A DNA stretch of 64,000 bases from Candidatus Nanosyncoccus alces (GTDB lineage: Bacteria; Patescibacteriota; Saccharimonadia; Saccharimonadales; Saccharimonadaceae). The notes below the pieces were generated by a model. That model was not told the origin of the DNA, made no database searches, and saw only the letters and a list, made by a program, of their open reading frames with translations. How positions within the stretch are numbered: the first letter of the stretch is position 1; each line of letters opens with the position of its first letter. Shown one piece after another: positions 44,946-50,434 of the stretch. A program made the translations under genes and the position numbers. The stretch spans positions 62,001 through 126,000 of the forward strand of contig NZ_PRLM01000001.1 in assembly GCF_004138395.1 (NCBI RefSeq). The letters are read 5' to 3'.

Positions 44946-45347
44946 ATGTCATTACAATCTACAGATCAAATCGCCGACCTTATTACTCGTATTCGTAATG
45001 CTGTGATGGTAGGCAAGAATGAAATTCTCGTCCCTACTTCCAAACTTAAAGTACAGGTAATTGAGGTTTTGGCTAAAAATGGTTATATTACGGGCTTTGA
45101 AGTGATTGAAGGCAAGCCACGTGGCGTGCTGAAGGTCACGATTAACGAGCCTGGTATGATAGCTAAAATCAATGAGATTTCAAAGGTATCTAAACCTGGA
45201 CGTCGAGTATATTCGGCTGCTGAAGATTTGCCGGTAGTGAAGTCTGGCCGAGGTATGGTTATTGTTTCTACCTCTAAGGGGTTAATGACCGGTCGTGAAG
45301 CAAAGAAAAACCATTTGGGTGGCGAAATTCTAATAAGGGTTTGGTAG
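44946..45347 (+). CDS. rpsH: Ribosomal protein uS8
   Basis: 133 residues. [18 protein letters not shown] start and [28 protein letters not shown] end are typical (the start of the last motif reads [10 protein letters not shown]). Last gene before the surface-protein insertion. Confidence 0.97.
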   Translation: [133 protein letters not shown]

Positions 45348-45382
45348 GATTTGAACTTATATCCTCTGGAGAGGAGTTTAGT

Positions 45383-45419
45383 AAAAAATAAATTGAGACC
45401 TAGTCTCAATTTATTTTTT
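45383..45419. terminator. Terminator after uS8
   Basis: AAATAAATTGAGAC-CTA-GTCTCAATTTATTT with T-run: a long perfect stem that ends the first ribosomal unit. Confidence 0.95.
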
Positions 45420-45489
45420 GTTGACAGGTTTATCTATTGTTAGAGCGGAAGGATCTTAGGACATAATGTTTGAATTAACTTAAAAAATC

Positions 45490-45518
45490 TTGATTTTTGG
45501 GGTTAGGTGCGGTATATT
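45490..45518 (+). promoter_or_regulatory. Promoter of surface-protein gene
   Basis: TTGATT, 17-base spacer, TATATT, giving a leader of about 70 bases. A TTGACA at 45421 lacks a well-spaced -10 partner. Confidence 0.65.
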
Positions 45519-45597
45519 GAGACTAGAAAAGGAGTGTGTGTTTGACGTTTGGTGGGCCAAGCGCATTTTTAATTTAAAACCATCAGGAGGAGAGAGT

Positions 45598-48500
45598 ATG
45601 GTTAGAAAACAAATATTAAAGCGGGTCAGTTATTTTGGCGTGGCCTTAATGTTGATGCTGGCGAGTGTGCCAATATTGCCTAGTGGTAGTGCATGGGCGG
45701 ATGGTGGATTGTCGACCTGCATTGGTGGCCCCTGGAACAATTTGAATAACAAACTTTCTAGTACTGCCGATGAACTTGAGATTACACTTTGTGCTGGTGA
45801 AGATTATTCAGAGTATGATCATGGGCTATCCGCTCCCAACATTAAGAATTTAGTTCTAGACTTAAATGGCAATGCCATTAGAATAACTGGTACTAATGTA
45901 AAACCCGGCAATAGTTTGACTATTAAGAACGGGACGATTTTGGGTAAGAATGGCAATCCGTTATTTAGCAACAGTGGTACTTTGACTTTTCAAAATGTTA
46001 CTTATAGTGCTAATGATTTGAGATTTGTCCGTAATAACGCTGGTGGTGTATTGAGAATTGTAAGCGGTAATTATTCTGGTGCAACCACACTTTTCTATGG
46101 CGATGGCGCAGCTAATATTAGTGGTGGGACTTTCGACCGTGACGTAAACTCTGGCGTGGCTAGTGGCTACGCGGCTTATAAGAGTGGCAACGCATGGGTA
46201 GTAGAAACTAAATTAACCAACGAGAATATCACCGCTCCAGATACTATCGTATTGAAAGAAGGCGAGGTATTTGACGTAGCAAGTATAATTGGGCTGCCGG
46301 CGGGTTCTACCACGGGACTTAGCTATTATTCGCGCAATAATGATGTGGCAAACATTAATTACCGTGGCATAAATAGCGAAGGCTCTAACGGCTTGCTCGG
46401 CGTAAGTGCGGGTACTACTAGTATTGCGGTGAGACCACTATATGATACAAGCTTGATTAAAAATATTAATGTAGTGGTAGAGTCTGGCTTGGTGGGGATT
46501 AATGTCGATGATTTGAATATGTCGCAAGAAGATTCGGTGAGAACGAGGATCTCTAATATTTATGCAGAAAGAGCAAATCCTGACTACGTGACTGGAGTAA
46601 CTTACGTAGTAGATAGAAACAATTTGCCGAGTGGTCTAGCTGCGCGTATCAGTACGGCTGGAGACGAATTGGTGGTGACGACTGGTATTGATGCCAAAAT
46701 TGAGCCTGGCACATATACCGTAAGGATTAAAGCTCTGAGAGACGGCGTGGATACAGGTATCTACAGGGATGTTACTGTAAATGTGGGCAATATTTTCACT
46801 AACTTCTCATTAAACCAACAATTGGCAAGTGAAAACACGATTGAACTGAAAGAAAACGAGTCGGTGGAACTGACCGTGAAAAACGCTAGGACGATGAATA
46901 GTGCCGATAATGTTGAGGTGGTGAGTGTAGAGTTGAGGAGTGCTAGCGACGTAATGAGTACCGATGGTGTTAAAACTATTTCTGGTAGTCAGAATGGTAT
47001 CGGTGAAGCAACAATCTACGTTACGGCAGAATACACTAGCAGTAACAATCATAAATATACTTTCACTAAAGGATTTAAGGTGAAGGTGCTTTCGGTTTTG
47101 GAAAGCATTGGCGTGCGGGATATTAATGATGACAACTACAGTGGCGATTTGTATGGTTCAGATGCTGGCGAGACGAGTGAAGTAGAGCTTGATAAATACG
47201 ACGAAAAAAGTTTTAAGATTACCAAGCATTGGTATAATGCGGCGACGGACTATGCAGTGGAAATCGTATCTGGTAATGATGTAGTTGAACTGGACGATAC
47301 CAATATTACAAATGGTCAATTTGGCGTGAGTGGCAAAATGCCTGGCGTGGCAACCGTAAGGGTGAGTGTAACACCTAAGGGTGGTAACGATACTTTGACT
47401 AAAGAGTTTAATATCAAAGTCAATCCTATTTTGGAAGATATTACGATTGCGGTTGAATCTGATGGTAGAGTGATGACGGAAGATTACGAGATTGATAATG
47501 GCGATTTTGGGAGAATTATTGCAACAGCCAATGACAATTTGGATGCTACTGGCGATATCACTTATACTTTTGTGGAAACTGATCGGGTGAAGCGACTAGA
47601 TATAAGAGAGGACGGTAATTTTAGAAGTGGTCTAAATACAAAATCGGAAGCAACTGTAAGGGTTACTGCTAGAGATAGTAAGGGGCGCGAAGTTACTAAA
47701 GACATCAAAATAAAAATCAATCCGGTACTGGTGTCATTAGCTTTGGAAAATGACGATATCACGATCTACGAAGAGGACACGGCACAGATCAAGATTAAGC
47801 AGGTAGTAGCAGATGTGATTAAGTCGAAAGTAGCTTGGAGTTACGAGAATTATGACGGCAGTATCATTAGCGTGTCTGAAACTGGTGAAGTGACTGGCCT
47901 GAAAGATGGCACGACCGTGGTAAAAGTGGTAGGAACTTTTGTGTCGCCACTAGGCAAGACCTATACTGCTTCTAAAGAAGCTAGGATTACGGTAAAGCCG
48001 TTATTGAAACAGGTGAGTATCAAGAGCAAGAACGGTAGATATTTATTAAGTGGCACGACACAGACTTTGTATGAGCTAGATAATGCTACTTATAGGATTT
48101 CACATAAGAATAAGAACGCACCAGTAACATACACGGCGATTTCGGCGGATGAAGATGTGGCGACGGTGGTAGTAAATGGTAGTGAGCTTGAAGTGATAAC
48201 TTATGAAAAAGTTGGTAGTACTTTGATTACGGTGATCGCTGAAGATAACGAAACTGGCAAGAAAGTTTCCACTACCATGACGATAAAGGTAAAGCCGACC
48301 TTGAAGAACGTGAGTGCGGACGATGTGTATATGGTGGTTGGTGAGAAAGAAGCCTTGAACGTTTCGTGGGAAAATCCTGATGTGACGCCGTCTTTGCAAT
48401 ATCACTCTGGCGATAGGACGATTGCAAGAGTGAGCCCTAGGGGCAATGTGACTGGTATGAAGGCCGGTGAAACGACGGCAACGGTGAGAGCGTATTACGA

Positions 48501-49752
48501 CAGTAAGGTTGCGGAAGCGACTGCAGGAGTACATGTATACGAAATGGTGAAACCGGTACGTCATCACTATTATGGCGCTGTGGGGCAGGTGTTTAATGTG
48601 CACGTAGGAGACAAGAATACGAACGCTTATACTAGGGCGAGAGTAAACGCTCCTTGGGGAATGTTTGTAATGGGCGATGCTGTTATGGCGCTTTTGCCTG
48701 GTGTATATACGGTAATTTATACGGACTACATGGCAAATGGCGAGGTTGTGGGTGAGTATGCGGCGGAATTTACAATATTTAACGTAGAGCGTGAAACTGT
48801 AGTGGTAGCACGTGGTGATACGGTGGAGTTGGAACCGCATAGTGAGTGGAATACTACCTCTGCCAAGGATGAAACTACCGGACATCATGTGCGTGTTAAT
48901 AGGGATGGTAAAGTAGTGTTTAAAGCTGATGAGGCAACCGCACTCGGTGTGCACGATATAACAATGAAGCATATGTTTAGATATGACGTCCGTGAGGTAG
49001 TAAAGGAAGTGAGGGTAGTGGTATATGATGTAGTGGCAGATTTAGAGACAGACCCAGACGGTGTAACGGCAGATACCCTTAAGGAGTATATTGAAGGAAT
49101 GTTTGTACAACCTACTTCTTGGGAAGAGTTTGTGGAAAGAATGCAACAGACGCGGGGGTTGTTTGGTGATGGGTTTGAGTATTTCTGGTCGACTATGGGC
49201 GTGAGTAGTGCAGTGTTTAATGGTGACGAAATCAACACACGCGTAGAGGTTACTGAGCTTGAGGAAGAGGAGGTGGAAGTTGAGTTGATTGATGCGATTG
49301 GTGATTTGGACGTAAAAGGAGTAAAATATTTTGATGTGTCAGTATGGATGTCTAAGAATGGTTACGATTTTGGTAAAATACATCAGTTGAATGGAAAAAT
49401 TACCGTGGCATTAACCGAAGTGGCCGATCCAGAGACTGGCTATATTCGTCAATATATTGTAGTGCGTGAACACGACGGCGAGATTGAAATGCTAGAGGAA
49501 GGCGTGGATTTCTATATTGAAGATGGTGTGCTGTATATAATTTCGGATAAGTTCTCGACTTACGCGGTGGCTTATCAAGACACTTTGATTCCGGCTTACG
49601 GTGGGGTGGCTTATACTGTGAGCGCGCCGGATACTGGTGTAAACACGAAGGTGGACGGTGGTGCTACCAGTACCAATATGGTTGTAGCTGTGTTAGCCGC
49701 ATTGACTGCGACAGCCTTGGCTGGCGTGGCGATGTTCGCGAAGCGTAGATAG
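45598..49752 (+). CDS. Giant cell-surface protein, beta-helix plus Ig-like repeats
   Basis: 1384 residues from the ATG at 45598 (site CAGGAGGAG). Signal peptide, cleaved after SAWA (residue 34). Residues about 80-200 form a right-handed beta-helix-like segment (LVLDLNGNAIRITG, GNSLTIKNGTILG). The middle is a series of bacterial Ig-like (Big_2-type) repeats, for example SIISVSETGEVTGLKDGTTVVKV. The C-terminus has APDTG at 1343-1347, then a hydrophobic helix (1361-1381) and KRR, resembling an LPxTG sorting signal with a longer linker. It interrupts the ribosomal cluster as an independent unit. Likely adhesin or surface layer; inference. Confidence 0.88.
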   Translation: MVRKQILKRVSYFGVALMLMLASVPILPSGSAWADGGLSTCIGGPWNNLNNKLSSTADELEITLCAGEDYSEYDHGLSAPNIKNLVLDLNGNAIRITGTNVKPGNSLTIKNGTILGKNGNPLFSNSGTLTFQNVTYSANDLRFVRNNAGGVLRIVSGNYSGATTLFYGDGAANISGGTFDRDVNSGVASGYAAYKSGNAWVVETKLTNENITAPDTIVLKEGEVFDVASIIGLPAGSTTGLSYYSRNNDVANINYRGINSEGSNGLLGVSAGTTSIAVRPLYDTSLIKNINVVVESGLVGINVDDLNMSQEDSVRTRISNIYAERANPDYVTGVTYVVDRNNLPSGLAARISTAGDELVVTTGIDAKIEPGTYTVRIKALRDGVDTGIYRDVTVNVGNIFTNFSLNQQLASENTIELKENESVELTVKNARTMNSADNVEVVSVELRSASDVMSTDGVKTISGSQNGIGEATIYVTAEYTSSNNHKYTFTKGFKVKVLSVLESIGVRDINDDNYSGDLYGSDAGETSEVELDKYDEKSFKITKHWYNAATDYAVEIVSGNDVVELDDTNITNGQFGVSGKMPGVATVRVSVTPKGGNDTLTKEFNIKVNPILEDITIAVESDGRVMTEDYEIDNGDFGRIIATANDNLDATGDITYTFVETDRVKRLDIREDGNFRSGLNTKSEATVRVTARDSKGREVTKDIKIKINPVLVSLALENDDITIYEEDTAQIKIKQVVADVIKSKVAWSYENYDGSIISVSETGEVTGLKDGTTVVKVVGTFVSPLGKTYTASKEARITVKPLLKQVSIKSKNGRYLLSGTTQTLYELDNATYRISHKNKNAPVTYTAISADEDVATVVVNGSELEVITYEKVGSTLITVIAEDNETGKKVSTTMTIKVKPTLKNVSADDVYMVVGEKEALNVSWENPDVTPSLQYHSGDRTIARVSPRGNVTGMKAGETTATVRAYYDSKVAEATAGVHVYEMVKPVRHHYYGAVGQVFNVHVGDKNTNAYTRARVNAPWGMFVMGDAVMALLPGVYTVIYTDYMANGEVVGEYAAEFTIFNVERETVVVARGDTVELEPHSEWNTTSAKDETTGHHVRVNRDGKVVFKADEATALGVHDITMKHMFRYDVREVVKEVRVVVYDVVADLETDPDGVTADTLKEYIEGMFVQPTSWEEFVERMQQTRGLFGDGFEYFWSTMGVSSAVFNGDEINTRVEVTELEEEEVEVELIDAIGDLDVKGVKYFDVSVWMSKNGYDFGKIHQLNGKITVALTEVADPETGYIRQYIVVREHDGEIEMLEEGVDFYIEDGVLYIISDKFSTYAVAYQDTLIPAYGGVAYTVSAPDTGVNTKVDGGATSTNMVVAVLAALTATALAGVAMFAKRR

Positions 49753-49768
49753 ACAAAAGCTACTTGGC

Positions 49769-49797
49769 TTGACAAAAAATAAAAAGTGTGCTATACT
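49769..49797 (+). promoter_or_regulatory. Upstream promoter of the uL6 unit
   Basis: TTGACA, 17-base spacer ending TGC, TATACT. Transcripts from it would meet the hairpin at 49811 at once. Confidence 0.82.
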
Positions 49798-49810
49798 GTA
49801 ATGGTAGTGT

Positions 49811-49842
49811 GAAAATTCCCTAGAAGTAGGGAATTTTCTCTT
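49811..49842 (+). terminator. Hairpin between the two uL6 promoters
   Basis: GAAAATTCCC/GGGAATTTTC with an imperfect T-rich tail (TCTCTTG). It may end the surface-protein mRNA or attenuate transcription from the promoter at 49769. Confidence 0.7.
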
Positions 49843-49860
49843 GTAAATAGAGAAGTTTTG

Positions 49861-49869
49861 TGATATAAT
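49861..49869 (+). promoter_or_regulatory. Second promoter of the uL6 unit
   Basis: TGA-TATAAT, 28 bases before the rplF ATG; AAAGGAG in the leader. Confidence 0.72.
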
Positions 49870-49897
49870 TGTCGGGATATTAACATAAAGGAGACAA

Positions 49898-50434
49898 ATG
49901 AGTCGTATCGGAAAACAACCCATCGAGATTCCGACGGGAGTGACAATTACGGTCGGCGACAGCGAGATTACTGTTGCAGGCCCGAAGGGTCAACTCATCG
50001 TTCCGGTGCAACCTAAGACTAAGGTTGCGATTGAGGGGAGCATGGCTACGGTCACCCGTGAGGATGACGAGCCAAAATCTCGGGCTTGGCATGGTTTGCA
50101 ACGCGCATTGCTCAACAATGCTGTTGTGGGCGTGACTAAAGGCTACGAGAAAAAATTAGAGATTAATGGTGTGGGGTTTCGTCTATCTGGCGGTCCGCAA
50201 GAAATCGAGATGGCGCTTGGTTTTTCACATCCAGTGAAATACAAAGCTCCAGAGGGCGTAACGCTTACTACCAATAAAATGGAAATTACGGTTTCTGGCA
50301 TCGACAAGCAAAAAGTTGGTCAGGTAGCCGCAGAAATCCGCAGCCTCAAGAAGCCAGAGCCTTACAAGGGTAAAGGTATTAAGTATGCCGATGAAGTGAT
50401 TCTTCGTAAAGCAGGAAAGGCGGGTAAGAAATAA
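49898..50434 (+). CDS. rplF: Ribosomal protein uL6
   Basis: 178 residues. SRIGKQPIEIPTGVTI start and PEPYKGKGIKYADEVILRKAGK end are typical. First gene of the second ribosomal unit, overlapping rplR by 1 base. Confidence 0.97.
   Translation: MSRIGKQPIEIPTGVTITVGDSEITVAGPKGQLIVPVQPKTKVAIEGSMATVTREDDEPKSRAWHGLQRALLNNAVVGVTKGYEKKLEINGVGFRLSGGPQEIEMALGFSHPVKYKAPEGVTLTTNKMEITVSGIDKQKVGQVAAEIRSLKKPEPYKGKGIKYADEVILRKAGKAGKK

Follow-up and report, generated by a model that had tools for sequence, protein, structure and literature searches.

The junction between rpsH and rplF in the spc operon of this genus is probably a variable, insulated cargo slot that has been refilled by recombination. Comparison of genomes shows that a predicted promoter for rplF-rplR-rpsE-rplO was gained in the ancestor of the genus or close to it, and that the cargo at the junction differs between species and is rich in predicted cell-surface genes, both sortase-anchored proteins and polysaccharide clusters. 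The members of the genus are tiny, probably parasitic bacteria of the gut. The window, by which we mean the whole stretch of 64,000 nucleotides that was analysed (G000:C1:62001-126000), comes from a genome of 727 kb in 6 contigs (G000) and carries the ribosomal cluster from rplC to rplO on the + strand. As the preliminary description had stated, a gene for a large surface protein lies in this cluster between rpsH and rplF, which are 4550 bp apart with a single intact ORF between them (Table 1). It is the longest ORF of G000 and exceeds rpoC. The frame of regulatory signals described for the gene is also present: both hairpins fold far better than expected, as judged by their z-scores, and two promoter-like sites precede rplF.

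Table 1. Features of the rpsH-rplF slot and the associated sortase gene (positions are those of the window unless a contig is given)
Feature	Position	Strand	Basis or remark
rpsH (S8), left slot border	44946..45347	+	gene placement
Terminator of rpsH, AAATTGAGAC/GTCTCAATTT and T run	45385..45417	+	fold -14.3 kcal/mol, z -7.4
Candidate surface-gene promoter, TTGATT-17-TATATT	45490..45518	+	weak match, 9/12
Surface protein gene, 1384 aa	45598..49752	+	ATG start, AGGAGG upstream
APDTG sorting motif	49624..49638	+	followed by transmembrane helix and KRR
Promoter P1, TTGACA-17-TATACT with TG	49769..49797	+	11/12; leads straight into hairpin
Terminator-like hairpin, slot end	about 49811..49838	+	-16.3 kcal/mol, z -5.0
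Extended -10 promoter of rplF, right slot border	49841..49869	+	10/12 with TG
rplF (L6), right slot border	49898..50434	+	
Class-F-like sortase gene	G000:C1:148855-149541 (L002, L304)		between secY and infA

The S10-spc cluster is a textbook case of conserved gene order, and the products of the two genes that flank the slot, S8 and L6, both belong to the set of 16 ribosomal proteins used for the CPR. Phylogenies of the CPR rest on these 16 ‘syntenic’ proteins (PMC8406219).

The survey of the junction located rpsH and rplF in 117 genomes of the genus, one per species and each at least 80% complete. Both genes were found in 103 genomes, on one contig in 80 and on different contigs in 23; the latter figure is a warning that assemblies from this genus often end at the slot. 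The 80 one-contig junctions comprise 11 that are empty (12-188 bp), 68 that are filled (538 bp-54.8 kb) and 1 that is rearranged. Among the named records, L090, L091 (goat duodenum), L092 and L095 are filled and L097 is empty. The junction is intact in 21 other families of the order, where the two genes lie 8-282 bp apart in 21 of the 21 genomes in which both were placed. When all 17 junctions from rplC to rplO were examined in the genus genomes and the named relatives, only rpsH-rplF was found to be interrupted. The survey rules out a lone insertion beside an otherwise normal junction, and it contradicts the earlier suggestion of a replication-stable locus, the junction being highly variable within the genus.

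Almost no weight need be given to the explanation that faulty assembly or binning has joined unrelated contigs. It could draw on the 23 of 103 genomes with the genes on different contigs and on bins such as G009 that appear to be strain-mixed, but insert and both flanking genes share one contig in 68 genomes. These contigs reach 554 kb and stem from many assemblies made independently, and neither the orientation nor the promoter ever differs among them. An artefact was rejected on this recurrence, and a break in the window assembly is no better an explanation when the interruption is met in dozens of independent assemblies. Nor is this a universal junction from which the gene has strayed in one genome, as rpsH-rplF is where most of the protein's relatives lie.

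The right border of the slot is the more uniform of the two. An extended -10 element, TGnTATAAT, stands ~30 nt upstream of rplF in 72 of 74 right ends from the genus, and its TG is found in 69 of the 74 against 4.6 expected in shuffles. The element is missing only in G119 (12 bp) and G088 (18 bp), the two tightest junctions, and it is present at empty junctions of 35-71 bp (G020, G031, G018, G111, L097 and G076). It is absent from the sister lineages L098-L100 and from the more distant L102-L105. Because the rplF promoter is also found at empty junctions, it is probably older than the cargo. The view that the ribosomal cluster was rebuilt around the surface gene therefore finds no support, all the more since unrelated cargo occupies the same slot elsewhere. 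At the left border, 54 of the 60 filled loci have a terminator within 130 nt behind rpsH, where 0.45 would be expected, and its sequence varies from species to species. Three junctions (G063, G066 and G146) are empty, yet have both terminator and promoter. Living genomes thus present a series of states, with no promoter, with the promoter only, with terminator and promoter, and with cargo. The series looks like an order of events in which promoter, terminator and cargo were gained in turn, or else the terminator-bearing empty loci look like the scars of lost cargo.

The rplF promoter would split the spc operon into two transcription units, and insertions would be tolerated between the units because both halves would be transcribed independently. 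Cargo lying between a terminator and the rplF promoter would need neither to depend on ribosomal transcription nor to disturb it. A junction refilled repeatedly in this way suggests a harmless route by which the order of an operon may be opened, through gain of a promoter, then of a terminator and then of an insert, and the genus offers a ready comparative series for the study of operon splitting. The same arrangement leaves unsupported the proposal that a ribosomal locus secures strong expression of the surface gene, since a terminator stands between rpsH and the insert. The match of the gene's own candidate promoter is modest, its score being at chance level for the promoter scan, although identity to the nearest relative, L090, is 86% over the 195 bp that surround it.

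Of about 52 filled slots whose whole content was read, 26 hold one or two xPxTG proteins. These are relatives of the window protein, members of a shorter family that is often the second of the two, or large VWA/Cna_B or FctA proteins. Polysaccharide clusters occupy other slots, with Wzz, CpsB, EpsG, sugar transferase and LytR-CpsA-Psr genes, and SipW/TasA-like genes are cargo in G011 and L090. A set of arginine deiminase, ornithine carbamoyltransferase and transporter genes is found in G012, where it was recognized with Pfam, and in G073 and G114, where it was recognized by sequence similarity; these three species are related, and each has the arginine deiminase operon in its slot (loci L058, L257 and L267, respectively). 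The arginine deiminase pathway of cultured oral Saccharibacteria is known to have been acquired and to be of help to them on the host. The surface-gene content of the slot is a tendency and not a rule, and some slots have no surface gene, holding housekeeping genes (G006) or, in others, genes of unknown kind. In G006 (L049), core genes have been rearranged on a large scale, so that rpoB, a likely rpoC, nusB and rnc now separate rpsH from rplF.

Such contents raise the question of whether the slot is selective at all. It is conceivable, if rather unlikely, that the junction is a neutral safe harbour, in which a separate promoter for rplF lifts selection against breaks, any gene can land by ordinary rearrangement, and the abundance of surface genes merely reflects their fast turnover at any location. 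The housekeeping cargo of G006 (rpoB, nusB and rnc) would then be expected, as would one clade that has a split operon with constant neighbours and the other large interruption, which lies between rplO and secY in the clade of the window. Harder to reconcile with neutrality is the scarcity of sortase-signal proteins, about five per 727 kb in G000, when one or more are found in around half of the resolved slots; how far this exceeds the genomic background is estimated from one genome only. Relatives of the surface protein are, moreover, mostly at the slot and not spread genome-wide, and rpsH-rplF is the sole junction used between rplC and rplO. If the slot is instead one in which cargo is exchanged and selected, cargo that alters the cell surface would be retained most often, as would fit a life on other cells, and the surface genes of the slot may set the host range of uncultured Saccharibacteria.

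The turnover of cargo is evident from comparisons at the species level, in which related species have non-homologous content between fixed flanks. The empty and filled states are intermingled on a FastTree phylogeny of rpsH and rplF, both of them short and possibly subject to recombination themselves: the 15 empty taxa require 12 changes, where random labels would require 13.7. The polysaccharide cluster of G024 lies downstream of a promoter closely similar to the surface-gene promoters of G067 and G128. The start of this slot (L048) has a run of ~14 G right after the surface-type promoter and before the polysaccharide cluster, which could be a phase-variable tract or a feature of the assembly. 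Near-identical slots in distant species were sought and none was found, high similarity of slots occurring mainly where the ribosomal genes are also close, so the comparisons establish turnover and not recent horizontal transfer.

The window protein has its own record of change. Its regions are a signal peptide (~aa 1-34), a variable part (~50-970) and a conserved C-terminal module (~970-1340). Against its counterpart in L090, whose rplF is 97% identical, identity is 8-32% over aa 50-970 and 50-82% beyond about aa 1000, whereas the more distant G082 has 36-70% identity over aa 200-550. Relatives of the protein were found in 7 of the 60 relatives searched; of those with known coordinates, four lie at the slot (G034, G022, G004 and G011), one lies beside rpsH in the rearranged G015 and one lies elsewhere, in G023. 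The C-terminal module is at the slot in G000, L090, G034, G022, G011, G082 and G104, and also in the more basal G004 and G015. This distribution bears on the possibility, which we regard as improbable, that the locus is inherited vertically from one ancestral surface gene and that species differ mainly through divergence, gene loss and local rearrangement instead of exchange between lineages. Vertical descent would agree with the module at the slot of the relatives of G000, its identity dropping roughly with distance, and with the restriction of DNA-similar slots to related pairs. It would not account for the unrelated cargo (capsule, arginine deiminase and Cna_B/VWA genes) and the empty sites that are interspersed on the tree, or for the reversed similarity of domains among G000, L090 and G082.

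If cargo is exchanged between lineages, the means of exchange must be considered. In the slot of G025 (L052:6390-6490), a surface gene is separated from a polysaccharide cluster by a second rpsH 3′ end, about 83 nt long and identical at 72 of the last 84 nt, which has its own terminator. Most simply, the duplicate marks an earlier position of the polysaccharide cluster immediately downstream of rpsH, but site-specific integration is another reading of it. Islands at the 3′ ends of tRNAs and other genes likewise occupy a fixed site after a conserved gene, and the slots have a single case of a duplicated gene end. A mobile element that integrates site-specifically at the rpsH 3′ end, in the manner of such islands, would explain this duplicate and the fact that the inserts begin directly after the rpsH stop codon. 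It is nevertheless very doubtful. When remnants of rpsH or rplF were sought in the slots, that of G025 was the one clear case; there is no common end sequence, the terminators and first genes varying by species, and systematic direct repeats are lacking. No phage-type integrase was found in the slots with checked coordinates, those of the first 36 genomes, which were scanned with the tyrosine integrase model PF00589. We infer instead that cargo would enter and be exchanged by homologous recombination in the conserved ribosomal genes on either side, for which an integrase would be unnecessary, by analogy with capsule loci.

Two capsule-type comparisons are available, the capsule/O-antigen loci of Klebsiella and, as a further locus of this type, pneumococcal cps. 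The Klebsiella loci likewise have variable surface cargo between fixed, conserved flanks and can be exchanged as a unit, for which homologous recombination in the flanks is proposed (PMC13043062). Some slots of the genus even contain capsule-like genes (wzz, cpsB and glycosyltransferase genes). The slot differs from capsule loci in being flanked by ribosomal-protein genes of one operon, in often holding a single giant surface protein and in having no fixed core genes. The vaa/vmp islet of Mycoplasma hominis is also a variable islet of surface-protein genes in a conserved context, with no repeats or integrase, and insertion by homologous recombination has been proposed for it too; its insertion sites are at a poly-T tract and a stem-loop terminator (PMC524362). 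Unlike the slot, it varies within one species, stands beside a tRNA gene and the hit operon instead of in a ribosomal operon, and has far narrower cargo (PMC524362). A search among open-licence papers gave nothing on an rpsH-rplF insertion slot or on sortase substrates of Saccharibacteria.

The putative path of the 1384-aa protein to the cell surface can be read from its ends. A signal peptide, MVRKQILKRVSYFGVALMLMLASVPILPSGSAWAD, is present as judged by eye, and the structure model has an N-terminal helix. The C-terminus reported earlier, APDTG followed by a helix and KRR, is there as claimed, and the P, T and G of the sorting motif are invariant across 14 slot proteins. About five proteins in the whole of G000, this one among them, have sortase-type tails of the xPxTG kind, after three to four further pattern matches, e.g. 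an FtsW-like protein, had been excluded as unlikely. The beta-helix and the Ig repeats that were also attributed to the protein fare less well, each being weakly backed. Big_2 reaches 20.0 bits against a Pfam cut-off of 22.8. The N-terminal part could be modelled only poorly (mean pLDDT 43.8), with short beta strands, at a block pLDDT of 55-78, only at ~residues 41-140. Searches of Pfam, NCBIfam and PDB sequences with the protein gave no match above cut-off, and the model of the C-terminal module (255 residues, mean pLDDT 76) found no usable counterpart among known folds, the best hits having E ~0.02 and TM <0.3. In its signal peptide, repeat region, xPxTG motif, helix and basic tail the protein resembles the LPXTG-type adhesins, which include the VWA/Cna_B isopeptide proteins, and several slots hold Cna_B and VWA domains as these adhesins do. 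The slot proteins differ from the LPXTG type in that their motif is mostly A/T-P-x-TG, and the window protein differs further in having no recognised adhesin domain and a stalk without close structural match. By these signals, it would be exported through Sec, cleaved at APDTG and anchored by a sortase, after which the variable outer part may contact the host bacterium or an animal surface and change fast, while the C-terminal stalk stays conserved.

Two sortases are encoded in G000, one of them between secY and infA (Table 1). It can be called class-F-like only, its best model, NF033748, scoring 78.7 bits against a cut-off of 166. The order secY-sortase-infA is found in 27 of 30 loci from the genus, and two more have secY alone, at contig ends. 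We infer that this enzyme is the candidate partner of the window protein. As secY and the sortase lie 3-5 kb behind rplF in several genomes, slot and sortase gene appear to come from one ancestral cluster. A fuller account, which we put forward tentatively, is that this genus of episymbionts has evolved a dedicated slot in the spc operon, where the genus-specific rplF promoter and the interchangeable terminators let putative host-contact modules such as giant surface proteins, capsules and arginine deiminase be swapped by recombination, with the sortase behind secY belonging to the same ancestral cluster. The clade of the window has a second break in the operon, of 24-45 kb, between rplO and secY (window 51913 onwards).

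A further observation concerns the end of the slot. At 49769-49845 of the window, a strong promoter is followed a few bases on by the terminator hairpin, and the transcript would be only ~40 nt. This layout of a promoter leading into a hairpin recurs at many slot ends; as judged by eye, it is present in G034, G022, G028, G009, G128, G084, G087 and G146, and in G028 it flanks the slot on both sides. Its occurrences include G000:C1:153884 and the loci L041, L056, L232, L258, L260 and L261.
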